Shown here in pieces: positions 6,624-37,219 of a stretch of DNA of 64,000 nucleotides; position 1 is the stretch's first letter; every line of letters begins with the position of its first letter. The DNA comes from Chryseobacterium turcicum. GTDB lineage: Bacteria > Bacteroidota > Bacteroidia > Flavobacteriales > Weeksellaceae. Both the position numbers and the translations under genes were made by a program. The notes under the pieces are model-generated. The model searched no databases. It was not told where the DNA came from and was given only the letters and a program-made list of their open reading frames with translations. The stretch lies in assembly GCF_021010565.1 (NCBI RefSeq), contig NZ_JAJNAY010000001.1, positions 1,778,001 to 1,842,000 of the forward strand. Direction: 5' to 3'.

Positions 6624-6675
6624 TAAATTATTTTCATATAAATTTAAATAGGCTCTTACATTTTTGTAGCTTTTT

Positions 6676-6758
6676 CCCGCTCTCCACTGTATCTTTTTTG
6701 TTACAATCTCCGCTTCGCTCCGTTTGCAACAAAAAAGGATGTCGTTTCTATCGGGGCT
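6676..6758. repeat. Palindromic intergenic repeat, family R1 copy 2
   Basis: The second copy of the palindrome at 808-896, sharing the CTCCGCTTCGCTCCG core, the ATCTTTTTTGTT/AACAAAAAAGGAT arms and the TATCGGGGCTA end. The flanks differ between copies, which indicates a dispersed element. Confidence 0.75.
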
Positions 6759-6778
6759 AGTCATGATATTTTACAAAT

Positions 6779-28720: not shown

Positions 28721-29476
28721 TTAATTTTTTATAGAATTAATAAAATCTATGGCTTTTATTCTCCAATCTTTATCGTTGAGCAAGATGTTAACGAAGGCGG
28801 TGCCGATGATTCCACCGTCTGCTTTTTGGGTAACATTTTCAAAATCTTCTTTAGATTTAATTCCAAAACCTATCATTACAGGATTTTTCAGTGGGAGAGA
28901 GGCTACTCTGGAAAGGTAGTCTTCGTTTTTTAAAACAGCATTTTCGTTTCCTGTTGTGGATGAGGAGCTTACAGCATACAAAAAGCCTGAACTTAATGAA
29001 TCCAAATATAACATTCTCTCATCTGAAGTTTCAGGAGTTACCAAAAACGTAAAATTCAAATTATATTTTTTTAAAATTTGCTGATAGTTTTTTTCAAATT
29101 CAATCGGTGGTAAATCAGGAATAATTAAACCTGAAACTCCACTTTCCGAACATGCTGCGCAAAATTTTTCAAATCCGAAACTCAATACCGGATTGATATA
29201 TCCCATTAAAATAATTGGAATTGTTATTTCATTTTTAACAGATTTCAACTGAGAAAGCAAAGTTGAAATGGTCATTCCGTTGTTCAAAGCCAGTTCATGA
29301 GCTTTTTGAATGACTGGTCCATCTGCAACAGGGTCAGAATAAGGCATTCCGATTTCCATCATATCGGCTCCGGAATCTTGAATAAGTTTTATAATTTCAG
29401 CCGTATTTTCCAATTGCGGAATTCCTGCGGTGAAGTAGATGTTGAGGAGTTTAGGTTGGATATTATTTTGAGACAT
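28721..29476 (-). CDS. trpA: Tryptophan synthase alpha subunit
   Basis: A 251-residue TIM barrel that cleaves indole-3-glycerol phosphate to indole, which is channelled to TrpB. Catalytic Glu41 and Asp52 are visible in ADMMEIGMPYSDPVADGPV, and the phosphate-binding end has GFGIKSKEDF and GIIGTAFV. It is the last trp gene, 284 bp downstream of trpB; the gap holds a REP element and an R2 repeat, unlike the tight spacing typical of trpBA. Confidence 0.96.
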   Translation of the reverse strand: MSQNNIQPKLLNIYFTAGIPQLENTAEIIKLIQDSGADMMEIGMPYSDPVADGPVIQKAHELALNNGMTISTLLSQLKSVKNEITIPIILMGYINPVLSFGFEKFCAACSESGVSGLIIPDLPPIEFEKNYQQILKKYNLNFTFLVTPETSDERMLYLDSLSSGFLYAVSSSSTTGNENAVLKNEDYLSRVASLPLKNPVMIGFGIKSKEDFENVTQKADGGIIGTAFVNILLNDKDWRIKAIDFINSIKN

Positions 29477-29760: not shown

Positions 29761-30948
29761 TTATAATTTAGAAAGATACGTTTCCATATCCTTATCACCA
29801 CGACCAGAAAGACAAATGACAACAATATCAGTTTCGTTAAATTTCTTTTTATCTAAAACCGCCAAAGCATGAGCGCTTTCCAAAGCTGGAATAATTCCTT
29901 CCAGTTTAGTTAAATCAAAGGCAGACTGTAAGGCTTCATCATCATTAATGCTAAAAAATTCAGCACGGTTTTCTTTAAATAAATGCGCATGAAAAGGCCC
30001 AATTCCAGGGTAATCTAAACCTGCAGAAATAGAATGTGGCTCAATAACCTGTCCGTCTTCAGTTTGCATAACCAAACTTTTGCTGCCGTGTAAAACACCC
30101 AAAGTTCCGAGAAAAGTCGTTGCAGCAGATTTTCCGGAATCTATGCCAAAACCTCCTGCTTCTGCGGCAATAATTTTCACATTTTCTTCTTCTACAAAAT
30201 GATAGAAAGTTCCTGCAGCATTACTTCCACCGCCTACACATGCGATGACATAATCAGGAGTTGAACGCCCGATTTGTTCGTTAAGTTGCTCTTTAATTTC
30301 TTTAGAAATTACCGACTGAAATCTTGCCACCAAATCAGGAAACGGATGCGGACCAACCACACTTCCAATAACGTAATGAGTGGTTGTAGAATTATTAATC
30401 CAGTCTCGTAAAGCTTCATTCACTGCATCTTTCAAAGTTTTTGAACCAGAAGTTGCAGGAATAACGGTTGCTCCCAACATTTTCATTCTTGCCACATTCG
30501 GAGCTTGTCTTGCAATGTCGATTTCGCCCATGTAAACGATACATTCTAAACCAAGCAAAGCACAAGCTGTTGCGGTTGCTACACCGTGTTGTCCGGCTCC
30601 GGTTTCGGCAATGATTCTGTGTTTTCCCAAACGTTTTGTCAATAAAACTTGCCCCAAAGCATTGTTAATTTTATGTGCTCCGGTATGGTTGAGGTCTTCT
30701 CTTTTTAAATAAATATTCGTTTTATATTTTTTACTTAAATTTTTCGCTAAATACAGCGGAGTAGCACGACCTACATAGTTTTTCAGCAAATCTTGATACT
30801 CATTCTGAAATTCTTCAGATTCAATAATTTGCAGATAGTTTTTTTGCAATTCTTCTACATTCGGAAACAGCATTTCGGGAATAAAAGCACCACCGAATTC
30901 TCCGTAATAGCCTTGTTCATCTGGATTTTTATAATTTGTTTTAATCAT
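29761..30948 (-). CDS. trpB: Tryptophan synthase beta subunit
   Basis: A 395-residue PLP enzyme that joins indole and serine to give tryptophan. It opens with the usual [18 protein letters not shown] lysine Lys93 is in [13 protein letters not shown], and the phosphate-binding GGGSNA is near residue 244. The start overlaps the stop of the OsmC gene by 8 bp, so the two are translationally coupled. Confidence 0.97.
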
Positions 30949-31414
30949 TTTTATACTTGATTTCGGGTTGATGTTTTACTTTAAAATTTAATGAGTTGGC
31001 AATGAAACAATATTCATTTGCATTTTGATGAAGTTCGATTGCTTTTTCGACCATATCTTTTTCCGAAACCAAAATTTGGGGTTTTAGGATGATTTCTGTA
31101 AATTTTCCACTTCCGTTTTCGCTTTCTATCATTGTTCCTTCAGCAAAATCAAGATACTCCAAAACTAAAATTTTATTGACCGAACAAAAATGTAAATACC
31201 ACAAAAGATGACAAGAAGAAACAGAAGCTAGCAACAAATCTTCAGGATTATGAAGCGCCGGATTCCCTAAAAACGCAGGGTCAGAAGAACCTTCGATTTC
31301 TGCTTTTCCATCCACCGAAATGATATAGCTTCTTTCATAGGAACGGTAATTTTTTGTGGACTCACCGGTATTTCCTGTCCATTCTATTTTTGATTTGTAT
31401 TGATGATTTTTCAT
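30941..31414 (-). CDS. OsmC/Ohr-family protein inside the trp operon
   Basis: A 157-residue OsmC-type protein with the two redox cysteines in [10 protein letters not shown] (Cys68) and NEYCFIANS (Cys137), as in thiol peroxidases that reduce organic hydroperoxides. The general fold is also used for other thiol chemistry. It sits between the REP transposase and trpB and overlaps trpB by 8 bp. It has no known role in tryptophan synthesis; I assume it is a co-transcribed passenger or links trp synthesis to oxidative stress. Confidence 0.85.
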
Positions 31415-31492: not shown

Positions 31493-31945
31493 TTAATCCC
31501 AAAGATATTTTTCATCATATTCAATTTGGTATTTTTTATAATAATTAATGACTTCTGTTTTGAAATCAAATTCTCTATGATGTTCTCTTTGATTTTTAAT
31601 ATAACTCGTCACTGGGAAAATATTATTTGGACTTACGGAAAAAGCACCATAACCATCTTGCCAAAAGAAATTTTCATACTTTTTACCTTTCGTTTTTATC
31701 CATTTTGATGAATGCGCTTTTATTTCCTGCACCAATTTCATTAAAGCTATCTTTTTTGAAAGTAAACAAAGAATATGTATATGATTATCTGTACCTCCAA
31801 TTTGCAATGCCGTGCTTTCAGAATCTTTACATAGCGTGGCAATGTATGAGAACAATTCTTTTTCTATGTTTTCATCAATAAAATCTTCGCGATGTTTTGT
31901 ACTAAAAACAATATGGATGTAATTTTTAACTAATGATTGTGACAT
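31493..31945 (-). CDS. REP-associated tyrosine transposase (RAYT, IS200-like)
   Basis: A 150-residue Y1-transposase/HUH endonuclease (PF01797). The HUH motif is at His55 and His57 in TDNHIHILC and the nucleophile is Tyr115 in SYIKNQREHH. It is intact in length. Unlike a full IS200 it is flanked by inverted REP copies (31428-31477 and 31958-32016), and matching REPs occur elsewhere in the trp operon. This arrangement is typical of single-copy RAYT genes that spread REP sequences. It interrupts the trp operon between trpF and osmC without breaking a gene. Confidence 0.9.
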   Translation of the reverse strand: MSQSLVKNYIHIVFSTKHREDFIDENIEKELFSYIATLCKDSESTALQIGGTDNHIHILCLLSKKIALMKLVQEIKAHSSKWIKTKGKKYENFFWQDGYGAFSVSPNNIFPVTSYIKNQREHHREFDFKTEVINYYKKYQIEYDEKYLWD

Positions 31946-31957
31946 GTTTTTTTGTGT

Positions 31958-32016
31958 TCCGATTATTGTAATCGGATTTGCATCCGATTCTGTGCTAAAT
32001 CGTCCTTTCAGGACTC
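31958..32016 (+). repeat. REP element copy overlapping the trpF 3' end
   Basis: A hairpin TTCCGATTATTGTAATCGGA is followed by a GATTTGCATCCGATTC-type stem and then TGCTAAATCGTCCTTTCAGG. The element reaches into the last codons of trpF (ending ...SIKNES), so the REP supplies part of the trpF coding end. Confidence 0.85.
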
Positions 32017-32727
32017 GTTCTTTATTGAATCTTTAAATTCTTTTATTTTTTCTACATCTTTAATTCCAGGTTCAATTTCAAATTTTGAATTGATATCGAG
32101 GGCGAATGGTTGTTTTAACTTTGTCAAAGTTTTATTTTCATGCAGATTAACTTTGACAATTTTTTTCAAATTTTCAACATTTTCTAAAGAAATTCCGCCG
32201 CTTAAAAAATAAGGAAGTGGAATCTCTATGTCGTTCAAAATATTCCAATTGAATGTTTTTCCTGTTCCGCCGAACGCTATAGAATCGGTGTCGAAAAGGA
32301 GATAGTTGATAGTTGATGGTTGTTGGTTGATGGTTTTTTGTAATTCATCAGAAGATTGGTTGCCAATTCTAATAACGTTGATAATTTTAATGTTTTCGCC
32401 TATTAATTGTCTTAATTGCAATATGAATTTTTCATCTTCATCTCCGTGTAATTGAATCATATCAAGCTGAGCTTCTGAAGTGATTTCCACAATTGCTTTA
32501 ATGCTTTCATTTACAAAAACGCCAACTTTTCTAAAATGTGGAATTTCAGCAATTTCTTTTAAACTCAAATAATTCAAAACGTATCTTGGTGATTTTTCGT
32601 AGAAAATAAAGCCAAGAAAATCAATTTTTAATGCCACTAATTCACGAATTTGATTGAGCTGTGTCAAACCACAAACTTTTAGCTTTGGTTGACGGTTGTT
32701 GGTTGATGGTTGTTGGCTTTCAATCAT
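32008..32727 (-). CDS. trpF: Phosphoribosylanthranilate isomerase
   Basis: A 239-residue TIM barrel (isomerises phosphoribosylanthranilate to CdRP). The conserved beginning KLKVCGLTQ (general base Cys19) starts only at residue 15. Catalytic Asp is in LLFDTDSIAFGGTGKTFNW, and the phosphate site includes FLSGGI. It is longer than the usual ~205 residues for two reasons. Residues 1-14 (ESQQPSTNNRQP) and a loop near 130 (INQQPSTINY) are both encoded by the same short AACCAACAACCATC-type repeat. The C-terminus overlaps a REP element. Both insertions are outside the active site, so the enzyme is probably functional. Confidence 0.95.
   Translation of the reverse strand: MIESQQPSTNNRQPKLKVCGLTQLNQIRELVALKIDFLGFIFYEKSPRYVLNYLSLKEIAEIPHFRKVGVFVNESIKAIVEITSEAQLDMIQLHGDEDEKFILQLRQLIGENIKIINVIRIGNQSSDELQKTINQQPSTINYLLFDTDSIAFGGTGKTFNWNILNDIEIPLPYFLSGGISLENVENLKKIVKVNLHENKTLTKLKQPFALDINSKFEIEPGIKDVEKIKEFKDSIKNES
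32301..32339. repeat. Low-complexity GTTGATGGTTGTTGG repeat inside trpF
   Basis: Tandem-like GTTGATGGTTGTTGGTTGAT units encode QQPSTINY in a surface loop before strand 6 of TrpF. The same unit is at 32684-32716, 35204-35236 and, in intergenic form, 55661-55692. Confidence 0.8.
32684..32716. repeat. Low-complexity repeat at the trpF start
   Basis: TTGACGGTTGTTGGTTGATG, then GTTGTTGG, encodes SQQPSTNNRQP at the N-terminus of TrpF, upstream of the conserved KVCGLT. Confidence 0.8.
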
Positions 32728-32737
32728 TGCTAAACTG

Positions 32738-33517
32738 TTATATTGTTACATTAGAAACAAATTCTCTGAATTTATTTCCCGGATTTTCATTTTTCATAAA
32801 ATATTCGCCCATCAAAAAACCGTCAAATCCTTTTTCTTTTAAGAATCTGAAATCTTCTTCGTTATAAATTCCGCTTTCTGCAATCGATAAAATATTTTCT
32901 GGAAGCTGATTTTTTAGGTTTACAGAATGTTGTAAATCAACTTTGAAATCTTTTAAGTTTCTGTTATTAATTCCTACAAAATCGATGTTTTTGTTAATAT
33001 GTTTGAGTTCTTCCTCAGTATGAATTTCCAATAAAACCTCTAAATTTAATTGATGAGCCAAATCGGTAAACTCTGAAACTTGTTGTGGCGAAAGACAAGC
33101 TGCAATCAACAAAATAACATCAGCTCCAATTGACTTTGCTTCATAAAACTGATATTCATCAATCATAAAATCTTTTCGCAAAATCGGAATTTGGATATGA
33201 TTTCTTACGCTTAAAATATCATTAAAACTTCCACCGAAAAAATCTTTGTCGGTAAGAATGGAAATTGCACTTGCCCCAAATTTTTCATACGCTGAAGTTA
33301 CTTCTAAAGGCGAAATTTGATTATTAATAATCCCTTTTGAAGGCGATTGTCTTTTATATTCAGCAATAATTCCGGATTTTGTTTTAATCGTTTCTTTTAA
33401 CGAAAAAGTTTCTCGGTTGAAAAATTCGGAATCTTTAAGTTGTTCCACAGAGATTTTAGATTTTGAATCTTTAACTTCCTGCCTTTTTCTTTCTATGATT
33501 TTGTCTAAAATGTTCAT
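32738..33517 (-). CDS. trpC: Indole-3-glycerol-phosphate synthase
   Basis: A 259-residue TIM barrel that decarboxylates and closes CdRP to indole-3-glycerol phosphate. Signature elements are IAEYKRQSPSKG (about 51-62, catalytic Lys), LRKDFMIDEYQ (about 115-125), GINNRNLKDF and LSIAESGI. It is separate from trpF, as is usual outside enterobacteria, and lies 10 bp upstream of it in the operon. Confidence 0.97.
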   Translation of the reverse strand: MNILDKIIERKRQEVKDSKSKISVEQLKDSEFFNRETFSLKETIKTKSGIIAEYKRQSPSKGIINNQISPLEVTSAYEKFGASAISILTDKDFFGGSFNDILSVRNHIQIPILRKDFMIDEYQFYEAKSIGADVILLIAACLSPQQVSEFTDLAHQLNLEVLLEIHTEEELKHINKNIDFVGINNRNLKDFKVDLQHSVNLKNQLPENILSIAESGIYNEEDFRFLKEKGFDGFLMGEYFMKNENPGNKFREFVSNVTI

Positions 33518-33573: not shown

Positions 33574-34563
33574 TTAATCATTAATAATTGAGCGAAGCGA
33601 CTTCAGCGCTTTTCCTTCAAATAAACTTTCTTTCACTAAAGCCAAACAATCCTCATACGTCCCAAATTTCTTTGTGTGATGCAACGCAACCGCTGCATTG
33701 ACTAAAACAACTGCGTTTTGTGAGTCCGTGCCGTTTCCTTCCAATATATTTTTAAAAATTTGTGCCGTTTCTTCGATGGTTTCTCCAGCTTTTATATTTT
33801 CAGAATCAACGGATTTAAATCCTAAATCTTCTGCCGAATAAATGTTTTCACCGCTTTTTGTAATGATTTTGCTGTCTTGAGTAAGGCTTATTTCGTCGTA
33901 TCCATCCATTCCATGAACTAAAACAAAATCCTGATTTTCTTGCTGCAACAAATACTGATATATTCTTGCGATTTCCAGATTGTAAACTCCAATTACCGAA
34001 AATTGTGGTTTTGCTGGATTTACCAACGGACCAAGCAGATTGAAAAAAGTTCGTAAACCTAAGGATTTACGTAAAGCTCCGACAGATTGCAATGCAGGAT
34101 GAAAATAAGGAGCGTGAAGAAAACAAATATTTGCTTTTTCCAAATCTTGATTGAGTTCGTCTGAAGTTTTTTTGAACTGATAGCCTAAAGCTTCTAAAAC
34201 ATTCGATGAACCTGTAACCGTTGATGCTCCGTAGTTTCCGTGTTTGGTCACTTTTTGTCCTGTACCAGCAACTACAAAACTTGCCAAAGTAGAAATGTTG
34301 ATGGTATTTTTTCCGTCACCACCTGTTCCCACGATATCAATACTGCCATTGGTGTTCAAATTAACCGGAACAGCCATTTGAAGAAGTGCTTCTCTGAAAC
34401 CTTTCAATTCTTCTAAGGTAATATTTCGCATCAGAAAAATACTGATAAAAGCTGTGACTTCAGTTGCGTTAAATTTATTTTGAGCTATCTCAATCATAAT
34501 AGCTTTTGCCTGCGATTTTGACAAAGTGTGATGATTAAATAGGTATTCTAATATTTCTTTCAT
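33574..34563 (-). CDS. trpD: Anthranilate phosphoribosyltransferase
   Basis: A 329-residue enzyme that couples anthranilate to PRPP. Key motifs are GTGGDGKNT at 79-87 (pyrophosphate binding), KHGNYGASTVTGSS (anthranilate tunnel), a DGYDEI metal site and LNLLGPLVNP-like FNLLGPLVNPA. The gaps on both sides (33518-33573 and 34564-34637) contain AT-rich repeats of the ATTAACAATTAATCATTAAT type. Confidence 0.97.
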   Translation of the reverse strand: MKEILEYLFNHHTLSKSQAKAIMIEIAQNKFNATEVTAFISIFLMRNITLEELKGFREALLQMAVPVNLNTNGSIDIVGTGGDGKNTINISTLASFVVAGTGQKVTKHGNYGASTVTGSSNVLEALGYQFKKTSDELNQDLEKANICFLHAPYFHPALQSVGALRKSLGLRTFFNLLGPLVNPAKPQFSVIGVYNLEIARIYQYLLQQENQDFVLVHGMDGYDEISLTQDSKIITKSGENIYSAEDLGFKSVDSENIKAGETIEETAQIFKNILEGNGTDSQNAVVLVNAAVALHHTKKFGTYEDCLALVKESLFEGKALKSLRSIIND

Positions 34564-34645
34564 TTTTAGTTGTTAATGGTTAATTGTTAATGATTAATTT
34601 GATTGGTTTTTAGTCATTAACAATTAATAATTTATAATTAACCAT
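34564..34645. repeat. AT-rich inter-cistronic repeat (TTAATGATTAACAATTAA type)
   Basis: GTTAATGGTTAATTGTTAAT and its inverse at TCATTAACAATTAATAATTT lie in the trpG-trpD gap. Similar sequences fill 33560-33588 (trpD-trpC) and 29735-29765 (before the trpB end). Confidence 0.6.
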
Positions 34646-35249
34646 TGAGAAGAAAATTTTCAATAATTTTCTTTCCATCGGGTGTTAAAATACTTTCAGG
34701 GTGGTATTGAACGCCATGAACATCATATGTTTTGTGTTTCAGGCTCATAATCATTCCTTTGCTGTCTGTACTGGTAATTTCCAATTCATCAGGAAAGTTT
34801 TCAGGATTAACTGCCCAACTGTGATATCGCCCAACTTCTAAAGTCTGCGGTAAATCATTGAAAAGTTTATGCTCACTGATTTGAATTGCTTCCGTAGCAA
34901 CACCGTGATAAATTTCAGTGAGATTAATTAAACTTCCGCCAAACGCTTCTGCAATCGCTTGTTGCCCAAGACAAACGCCAAGAATAGATTTTGTAGGAGC
35001 ATATTTTTTAATTAAATCCAATAAAATTCCAGCTTCTTCAGGAATTCCTGGTCCTGGTGAAAGAATGATTTTGTCGTATTTCTCAATTTCTTCGAGTGAA
35101 ATTTCATCGTTTCGGTAAACATCAACCTTTTGATTTGTAATTTGCTCAATCATCTGAACGAGATTGTAGGTGAAGCTGTCGTAATTATCAAATACCAAAA
35201 TTTTTGTTGTTGGTTGTTGGTTGTTAGTTGAGGGTTTTATATTTGTCAT
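34638..35249 (-). CDS. trpG: Anthranilate synthase glutaminase component
   Basis: A 203-residue class I glutamine amidotransferase that supplies ammonia to TrpE. The triad is visible: Cys93 in GVCLGQQAIAEAFGG, and His183 and Glu185 in GVQYHPESILT. The conserved start KILVFDNYDSFTYNL begins at residue 16; the first 15 residues (NIKPSTNNQQPTT) come from the short repeat also seen in trpF. It may also serve folate synthesis (pabA role), since no second copy is in the window. Confidence 0.95.
   Translation of the reverse strand: MTNIKPSTNNQQPTTKILVFDNYDSFTYNLVQMIEQITNQKVDVYRNDEISLEEIEKYDKIILSPGPGIPEEAGILLDLIKKYAPTKSILGVCLGQQAIAEAFGGSLINLTEIYHGVATEAIQISEHKLFNDLPQTLEVGRYHSWAVNPENFPDELEITSTDSKGMIMSLKHKTYDVHGVQYHPESILTPDGKKIIENFLLNG
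35204..35236. repeat. Low-complexity repeat at the trpG start
   Basis: TTGTTGTTGGTTGTTGGTTG, then TTAGTTGAGGG, encodes PSTNNQQPTT before the conserved TrpG core. It is the same unit as in trpF. Confidence 0.75.
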
Positions 35250-35492: not shown

Positions 35493-36911
35493 TTAAACTA
35501 ATTTCTCCGCTTTTTCAACCGCTTTTTTGAGGGCATTCAATTTATTGTTAACTTCTTCCAGCTCGTTTTGAGGAATTGATTTTGCAACAATGCCTGCTCC
35601 TGCCTGATAAAATAAAGTATTGTTTTTACTAAGAAATGTTCGAATCATAATGGCTTGATTACAATCTCCATTCAGACCAATCATTCCGATACAACCGCCG
35701 TAATAACCACGCGAATCTTTTTCGTATTCATCGATAAGCTGAAGGGCTTTATATTTTGGTGCGCCGCTTAAAGTTCCTTGTGGAAATGTTGCAGAAACCA
35801 ATTCAAAAGGATTGGCGTTTTCTTCCAAATCTGCGGTCACTTCACTCACCATGTGAATAACGTGAGAGAAAAACTGGATTTCTTTAAGTTTGGTAACCGT
35901 CACATTTTTACCTTTTTTTCCTAAATCGTTTCGGGCTAAATCGACCAACATGGTATGTTCTGCATTTTCTTTAGGGTCTTTCTTTAAAGCTTCTGCAGAT
36001 TGTAAATCGGTTTCGAAATCCCCACTTCTTTTAAAAGTTCCTGCGATAGGATGAATGATTGCTTTATCGTTTTTAATAATTAATTGACTTTCAGGGCTTG
36101 AGCCAAATAATTTGTAATTTCCATAATCGAAAAAGAATAAATAAGGAGATGGATTGATGTTTCTCAACGCACGATATACATTAAACTCGTCTCCTTTAAA
36201 TTTTTGCTCAAATCTTCTGCTTAAAACCAATTGAAATACATCACCTCTTTTGCAGTGTTTATGGGCTTTGTCTACCAGTTCCAGATATTCTGCATCGTTA
36301 AGATTTGAAGTTTCATAACCGTCTTTTTCAAATGGATAAACGAGGGTGTTTTTATTTTTGATTAAATCCTGTAATAAGCGCATTTCAGACTTTACGCCAT
36401 CAATTTTATTTTCGATAAGATGCATCTCGTCATTAAAATGATTAATAGCAATGACATATTGGTACAATCTGTAACGAAGAATAGGGATTTCAACTTCTTT
36501 GCTTTGAGGTTTGAATTTGATATTTTCAAAAAACGGAACCGCTTCAAAACTAGTATATCCAAAAAGACTTTGCGCCGTTTTTTCTATTTTGTCATCTGTT
36601 TTTTCACAAACAAAAACTTTTGAAAACTCATTAAGCAATTGAGTAACTTCAATGTTTTCTAAAGATTTTTTCTCCGGATTTTCATTGGGAAATTTAATTT
36701 CATACTCGTGGTAATTTTTTATTTCAATTCCGGCAATAGCGTTTATAGCGATGAAAGAAAAGTTGTTGTCGATACTTTTTGCGTCTGAACTTTCAAGCAA
36801 AATGGTATCGCGAAATTTATCTCTTATCTGCAAATAAATATTCATAGGAGTCTGTAAATCACCTAGTGTTTTTTTTGAAGTGGTTTTTATATGGATGGTA
36901 TTGTTAAACAT
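35493..36911 (-). CDS. trpE: Anthranilate synthase component I
   Basis: A 472-residue chorismate-utilising enzyme, first step of the pathway. The tryptophan feedback-site motif LLESS is at 38-42. The catalytic domain has LVLSRRFE, YLFFFDYGNYKLFGSSPE, PIAGTFKR, HTMLVDLARNDLG, GTLSGAPK and IRTFLS. It is the first structural gene of the operon and is preceded by an attenuator, so it is probably controlled both by feedback inhibition and by attenuation. Confidence 0.97.
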   Translation of the reverse strand: MFNNTIHIKTTSKKTLGDLQTPMNIYLQIRDKFRDTILLESSDAKSIDNNFSFIAINAIAGIEIKNYHEYEIKFPNENPEKKSLENIEVTQLLNEFSKVFVCEKTDDKIEKTAQSLFGYTSFEAVPFFENIKFKPQSKEVEIPILRYRLYQYVIAINHFNDEMHLIENKIDGVKSEMRLLQDLIKNKNTLVYPFEKDGYETSNLNDAEYLELVDKAHKHCKRGDVFQLVLSRRFEQKFKGDEFNVYRALRNINPSPYLFFFDYGNYKLFGSSPESQLIIKNDKAIIHPIAGTFKRSGDFETDLQSAEALKKDPKENAEHTMLVDLARNDLGKKGKNVTVTKLKEIQFFSHVIHMVSEVTADLEENANPFELVSATFPQGTLSGAPKYKALQLIDEYEKDSRGYYGGCIGMIGLNGDCNQAIMIRTFLSKNNTLFYQAGAGIVAKSIPQNELEEVNNKLNALKKAVEKAEKLV

Positions 36912-36937: not shown

Positions 36938-36971
36938 CAAAAAAAAGACTTCAACGCAATCGTCAAAGTCT
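36938..36971 (-). terminator. trp attenuator (3:4 terminator hairpin)
   Basis: On the minus-strand transcript, AGACUUUGACG and CGUUGAAGUCU form an 11-bp stem (two wobble pairs) with a 4-base loop and a run of eight U, 35 nt after the leader peptide stop and 26 nt before trpE. Its 5' arm can instead pair with CGUCGGGUCU inside the leader ORF (37028-37037), which would be the antiterminator. Confidence 0.88.
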
Positions 36972-37005
36972 CTGTATGTTTTTCTATAGAATTCTAGTTG
37001 TAATT

Positions 37006-37083
37006 TTAACAACACGACAATAGCATCAGACCCGACGAAGAGTTTGAGTGCCACCACCAATTTTTGTTGTTAGAAATAATCAT
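37006..37083 (-). CDS. trpL: trp leader peptide (25 residues, WWW)
   Basis: ATG at 37081-37083 and TAA at 37006-37008 give MIISNNKNWWWHSNSSSGLM, then LLSCC. Three consecutive Trp codons lie at residues 9-11. Directly downstream is an attenuator hairpin and then trpE. This is the classical arrangement for ribosome-mediated attenuation: with scarce charged tRNA-Trp the ribosome stalls on the WWW codons, frees the antiterminator segment (37028-37037) and allows read-through. There is no Shine-Dalgarno site, as expected in this phylum. Confidence 0.88.
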   Translation of the reverse strand: MIISNNKNWWWHSNSSSGLMLLSCC

Positions 37084-37219
37084 GGTACAAATGTAGAAAA
37101 TTTTTTATTATCAAAAACAAGAAAAATTAAAAAGCTGAAATTTATTTTCATTTCTGTGGAATCAGTTTAAATATGATTTAATATAGCTGCAAATCTCACA
37201 TTTAAAACTTTATTTTTTA

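Follow-up and report, generated by a model that had tools for sequence, protein, structure and literature searches.

A putative ribosome-mediated attenuator with a probably leaderless leader peptide ahead of the trp operon of Chryseobacterium

We identified a leader upstream of the trp genes of Chryseobacterium in which a short open reading frame (ORF) with three tandem Trp codons precedes an intrinsic terminator. Its sequence and predicted folding make it very likely that this trp leader controls the operon by ribosome-mediated attenuation of transcription. Its message is probably leaderless, starting without any 5′ untranslated region (UTR) and not merely free of a Shine-Dalgarno site. An earlier reading of the same DNA, made from the letters alone (the sequence-only reading), had proposed ribosome-mediated trp attenuation. 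The proposal is supported by the Trp codons and both alternative stems, which are kept in all 81 sequences of a set of close relatives, and by folding with a stalled ribosome in the same 81. None of these relatives has lost the Trp codons or either stem, a loss that the reading had named as evidence against itself.

Leader anatomy and conservation among close relatives

The window, by which we mean the whole 64,000-nucleotide stretch analysed, contains the features listed in Table 1. Both the 25-codon ORF with three consecutive Trp codons and the 11-bp terminator stem followed by eight U, as described by the sequence-only reading, are present where it had placed them. The alternative pairing that it had noted, between segment 2 and the 5′ arm of the stem, comprises 10 bp with one bulged base. 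The same reading was right in placing the antiterminator segment inside the leader ORF and wrong in placing it 7 codons after the Trp codons; the segment begins 13 nt (4 codons and one base) past the last Trp codon, or about 7 codons past the first.

Table 1. Coordinates of the trp leader, its predicted RNA elements and the downstream genes in the window.
Feature	Position	Strand	Basis or remark
−7 promoter box TACATTTG (consensus TAnnTTTG)	37088-37095	minus	read directly
Predicted transcription start, +1 = A of leader AUG	37083	minus	predicted from the 4-nt spacing and published flavobacterial spacing
trp leader ORF MIISNNKNWWWHSNSSSGLMLLSCC, 25 codons + TAA	37006-37083	minus	ATG 37083-37081, stop TAA 37008-37006
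Three tandem Trp codons (codons 9-11), sensor, TGGTGGTGG	37051-37059	minus	read directly
1:2 hairpin (anti-antiterminator), inside leader ORF	37007-37072	minus	MFE structure, 26 pairs
Segment 2, antiterminator strand CGTCGGGTCT	37028-37037	minus	pairs with segment 3
Segment 3, terminator 5′ arm and antiterminator 3′ strand	36961-36971	minus	
Segment 4, terminator 3′ arm	36946-36956	minus	11-bp stem with segment 3
U tract of intrinsic terminator, eight U	36939-36946	minus	read directly
trpE, regulated gene, ATG at 36911	35493-36911	minus	Pfam Anth_synt_I_N and Chorismate_bind
trpG	34638-35249		Pfam GATase
trpD	33574-34563		Pfam Glycos_transf_3
trpC	32738-33517		Pfam IGPS
trpF	32008-32727		Pfam PRAI
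Y1/IS200-like transposase ORF between trpF and trpB	31493-31945	minus	PF01797
OsmC-like ORF between trpF and trpB	30941-31414		
trpB	29761-30948		Pfam PALP
trpA	28721-29476		sequence and position only

The intrinsic terminator stands between the trp leader and trpE, the first gene, and the genes downstream of the leader follow in the order trpE, trpG, trpD, trpC, trpF, Y1 transposase, OsmC-like, trpB and trpA. The nearest TrpE matches of the window are from Chryseobacterium, at up to 94% identity, so the assignment to this genus is sound. Elsewhere on its minus strand the window has two copies of Flavo-1 (Rfam RF01705), an RNA motif inferred by computation, at 803-896 (68.9 bits) and 6669-6762 (64.4 bits).

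The close set consists of the window and the best 80 of 377 named trpE loci, of which 79 are titled Chryseobacterium and one (L073) Weeksellaceae bacterium; its alignment (A1) holds 81 sequences, 78 of them distinct. The leader ORF lies at the identical place in 81/81, starting with ATG in 80 and with GTG in one (L005, C. aahli), and the WWW codons (TGGTGGTGG) are invariant throughout. Insertions and deletions within the ORF are multiples of 3, and the distance from its stop to the terminator is free to vary. The first Trp codon is codon 9, 24 nt from the leader ATG, in 77/81. The T run has at least 6 residues in 79/81, the window included, and 5 in L020 and L026.

Competing helices, ribosome position and wider distribution

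Folding of the 189-nt leader region, a check suggested by the sequence-only reading, gave −40.4 kcal/mol (mean of shuffles −29.6, z −2.9), and none of 200 shuffles was as good. Because the segments of the 2:3 antiterminator overlap both the 1:2 hairpin and the 3:4 terminator, the three helices compete. All three are well paired in alignment A1. For the 1:2 hairpin, 92.2% of cells are paired, against 33-54% with the partner slid, and 37 cells are changed on both sides (as many in 0/500 shuffles); these two-sided changes are confined to 4 pairs, a count matched by 45/500 shuffles, and the outermost pair is mostly open. The 3:4 terminator is paired in 99.8% of cells, with one pair changed from A-U to G-C in 35 sequences, a number of cells reached in 0/500 shuffles, although one such pair occurs in 383/500. 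The 2:3 antiterminator is paired in 99.9% of cells over the 78 distinct sequences; within the genus it shows no covariation, its bases hardly varying, and its duplex energy in the window alone is not significant, being equalled by 6% of 300 shuffles (p 0.06).

In each of the 81 sequences we folded the RNA as far as segment 3, that segment included, and moved a ribosome footprint from codon to codon. With the A-site at any of the three Trp codons, or one codon beyond, 2:3 dominates (mean P(2:3) >0.5) in 81/81. Once the A-site lies 5-15 codons beyond the first Trp, 2:3 is dominant in 0/81, because the ribosome itself covers segment 2. The result at the three Trp codons is robust to the size of the footprint (81/81 for A+12 to A+16), and shorter footprints at the first Trp codon give 2:3 in 78/81 (A+10) and 80/81 (A+11).

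The scan also points to states in which segment 2 is free elsewhere. When the A-site precedes the first Trp by two to seven codons, 2:3 is also allowed in 45-61 of the 81, and the switch is thus not exclusive to the Trp codons. With no ribosome 2:3 still wins in 24/81 species, in which untranslated RNA need therefore not terminate; the window is not among them (0.02). Segment 2 is exposed again in 59/81 with the ribosome at the stop codon and in 77/81 one codon earlier, so the model depends on timing.

Beyond the close set, we found TrpE in 98/196 genomes of the order and 47/149 of the class. The order set comprises 60 upstream regions of the 98 genomes, 3 of them from the same genus; left out were the window's own locus, one located at a contig edge, 12/15 same-genus loci and 24/27 from the ~600-kb genomes of one family (f16). 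The class set comprises 40 of 48 places in the 47 genomes; of the others, 5 belong to the same order, 2 lie at contig edges and 1 is a weak, partial match. Regions L144 and L170 are shortened by contig ends. A short ORF with WW or WWW, together with a terminator, precedes trpE at 53/60 order loci and 23/40 class loci, and this arrangement spans 23 families, counting that of the window. By the criteria used, 24 of 101 loci (60, 40 and the window) have no leader with a terminator; among the 24 are L126, L142, L164 and L174, in which a Trp-rich short ORF is present and the terminator search was negative. No trp leader was found in the three sampled ~600-kb genomes.

The sequence of the switch is rewritten between families: the antiterminator strand is TCGGGGTTCT in one and TGTGAACAGC in another, and each matches its own terminator. 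Compared with dinucleotide shuffles, 37 of 77 duplexes reach p 0.05 singly, and that of the window (p 0.06) is not one of them. At the 76 further loci, a ribosome placed on the last Trp codon gives a mean probability of 0.63 for pairing of the terminator 5′ arm and loop with upstream RNA. The mean is 0.41 when the ribosome is at the stop codon, 0.36 when there is none and 0.42 for base-by-base shuffles of the leaders. This pairing at the Trp stall exceeds the mean of the locus's own shuffles in 76/76 loci, is matched by at most 1/30 shuffles in 40/76, and exceeds the stop-codon and the ribosome-free state in 62/76 each. Related genomes are not independent, so P values for the 76 loci are too small and the distribution across 23 families is more informative.

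Promoter geometry and the start of the leader

In 81/81 sequences of the close set a TAnnTTTG box ends exactly 4 nt ahead of the leader start codon, with no insertion or deletion among 16 different spacer sequences. The base at −1 is a pyrimidine in 81/81 and +1 would be A in 80/81; a pyrimidine before the start and A at +1 is the usual pattern of transcription start sites. No Shine-Dalgarno word occurs within 20 nt upstream of the leader in any of the 81, as the sequence-only reading had remarked for the window, and no TAnnTTTG box lies between the leader stop and trpE in 80/81. Flavobacterium psychrophilum belongs to the same order as Chryseobacterium. In the report on its promoters, the box has the consensus TAnnTTTG and lies at −12 to −5 (PMC9723704), and the study on F. 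johnsoniae accepts candidates with 4 or 5 nt from box to start as probable promoters and describes Bacteroidota as mostly lacking Shine-Dalgarno sites (PMC6847099). Together with this published geometry, the 4-nt spacing would place +1 on the A of the AUG, and the Chryseobacterium trp leader is thus probably leaderless. Leaderless mRNAs are uncommon in these bacteria, at 5.5% in F. psychrophilum (PMC9723704), and 3.7% of 5′ UTRs are shorter than 10 nt in B. thetaiotaomicron (PMC7366714).

A different picture is seen for the his operon. As an internal comparison we searched 30 Chryseobacterium genomes, 29 of which had a hisG match, for leader ORFs with at least 4 His. A His-rich leader ORF (HHYYHH or similar) followed by a T-run lies upstream of hisG in 29/29. 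The distance from box to ATG is 16-21 nt in 29/29 and 17 nt in 22/29, which corresponds to a predicted 5′ UTR of 12-17 nt. With 4 nt for trp and 16-21 nt for his, there is a consistent difference between the two leaders within the genus, and we reject the idea that all leader ORFs of the genus are leaderless. The his leader peptide of the source genome is MKPNFLTVHHYYHHLC, with a T-run behind it (L181, G000:C1:2245828-2249292; relatives L185-L212). We looked for further leader peptides in the 450 nt upstream of ilvD and hom (this genome, one gene each), and none was evident. In the same genome the prephenate dehydratase gene (L184, G000:C1:2778843-2782373) has the box TACATTTG 4 nt ahead of its ATG, suggesting that this gene may also be leaderless.

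Promoter spacing is more variable at the 76 further trp loci. Taking the smallest spacing of at least 3 nt from a strict box to an in-frame ATG, within 60 nt, we found 4-5 nt at 19 loci (including 3 of the same genus), 6-9 nt at 11, at least 10 nt at 31 and no strict box at 15. We therefore reject the idea that trp attenuation in general requires a leaderless start. The distance of 24 nt from ATG to the first Trp codon recurs at many of the 76 (not counted), regardless of promoter spacing. Three loci of another genus of the same family (g3; L085, L086 and L088) have an intact leader and no strict box close to the ATG; they share an upstream inverted-repeat-like stretch, gacagtt...ctgtc, which suggests a changed promoter.

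The range of spacings among relatives, either 4-9 nt or at least 10 nt, and the acceptance of both 4 and 5 nt in F. johnsoniae are compatible with an alternative in which the attenuator is the same and the message is not truly leaderless. Transcription might start variably, at the A, giving a translatable RNA, or at the U of the AUG, giving one that is not; or a short 5′ UTR might be made from another promoter. We consider this unlikely, since the 4-nt spacing is free of insertions and deletions in 81/81 despite its 16 spacer sequences, and since the bases at −1 and +1 follow the pattern expected of a start site. We therefore favour a leaderless trp leader in Chryseobacterium.

Proposed mechanism, alternatives and known systems

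In the mechanism that we propose, the helices are those folded in silico and the regulatory steps are inferred. Transcription would begin at or beside the A of the leader AUG, and the first ribosome would probably load on the 5′-terminal AUG. When Trp-tRNA is scarce, the ribosome would stall at codons 9-11, covering segment 1 and leaving segment 2 free. Segment 2 would pair with segment 3 as soon as the polymerase has made it, so that no terminator forms and trpE is read. When Trp-tRNA is plentiful, the ribosome would proceed into codons 14-24 and mask segment 2 itself, which we call transit masking. If segment 2 is masked while the polymerase makes segments 3 and 4, the 3:4 terminator would form and transcription would stop before trpE. 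Alternatively, the ribosome may be released under plenty and the 1:2 hairpin refold. In this species the 1:2 hairpin is also predicted to sequester segment 2 when there is no translation, likewise favouring termination.

The residues that follow WWW (xSNSSSGL..LSCC) are conserved within the genus, as would be expected if the leader peptide itself acted, either by arresting the ribosome or in trans, the mode proposed for the Sinorhizobium peptide peTrpL, with the RNA structure secondary. These residues, however, coincide with the RNA pairing partners. The codon TCA and, downstream of it, the codons TCG TCG GGT CTG, the latter lying over segment 2, are invariant in 80/80 including at synonymous sites, which points to a constraint on the RNA. 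Other families keep the RNA switch with a different peptide sequence behind WWW. Pairing and synonymous invariance explain the conservation outside WWW, and we reject a peptide function as very improbable. Least probable of all is an attenuator that binds a protein or a tRNA (TRAP-like or T-box-like), the short ORF being fortuitous. All such attenuators share a terminator ahead of the first gene, but in 81/81 the WWW codons and the start position are conserved and indels preserve the frame. No T-box or other Rfam family matches over the leader at the gathering score or by a credible weak match, and on this basis we reject a T-box, a riboswitch or another known RNA family.

Attenuation by a translated leader is thus the reading that we retain, and its closest model is the trpL leader of E. 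coli. As in trpL, a short ORF carries tandem Trp codons at about codons 9-11, 1:2, 2:3 and 3:4 helices compete, and a U-tract terminator precedes trpE. Unlike trpL, the Chryseobacterium leader has no Shine-Dalgarno site, probably has no 5′ UTR, and has three Trp codons. Its antiterminator strand lies in the ORF well ahead of the stop, and a ribosome at the stop leaves segment 2 uncovered, whereas in E. coli a ribosome at the stop codon covers it. The leader has no match at the gathering score, and no credible weaker one, to the Rfam Trp leader family (which we take to be RF00513), and hence it would work in a similar manner and is not a member of that sequence family. In short, the leader is predicted to work like trpL and yet matches the curated family by no test made here.

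A search of the open literature, by title and the start of the abstract, found no description of a trp leader from Chryseobacterium or other Bacteroidota, which does not establish priority; a 2010 comparative survey by Lopatovskaya et al. may cover Bacteroidetes. A 2021 publication had already raised the possibility of attenuation in flavobacteria. For F. psychrophilum, one sentence of the report proposes leader-peptide attenuation of amino-acid operons, the same mechanism as that proposed here and with mapped promoters; the parts of that report available to us do not mention leaderless leaders (PMC9723704). In Sinorhizobium meliloti, as in Chryseobacterium, the trpL RNA (rnTrpL) starts with the ATG of a short leader ORF before trpE(G) and acts by attenuation; S. 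meliloti is of another phylum, and the peptide has 14 amino acids there against 25 here (PMC7298713). The authors of a 2010 survey wrote that they knew of demonstrated leader-peptide systems from Proteobacteria and Actinobacteria alone until their own case in Firmicutes (PMC2965389).

Why the start should be so strictly kept is a matter on which we can be only tentative. Chryseobacterium may retain exact leaderlessness because, where there is no Shine-Dalgarno site, attenuation requires a ribosome to bind the 5′-terminal AUG as it emerges from the polymerase. Combined with an antiterminator inside the ORF, this could give transit masking, in which termination depends on a ribosome in motion rather than on one resting at the stop codon. 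A switch of this kind, with rewritten sequences and leaderless or short-UTR starts, might operate through much of the class and would imply tight coupling of transcription and translation at these leaders.

To our knowledge, little is settled on how closely ribosomes track RNA polymerase in Bacteroidota. With a range of at least 23 families, a trp attenuator would offer a natural and quantitative readout of transcription-translation coupling. Within one genus, the probably leaderless trp leader and the leadered his leader would provide a built-in comparison of translation starts.
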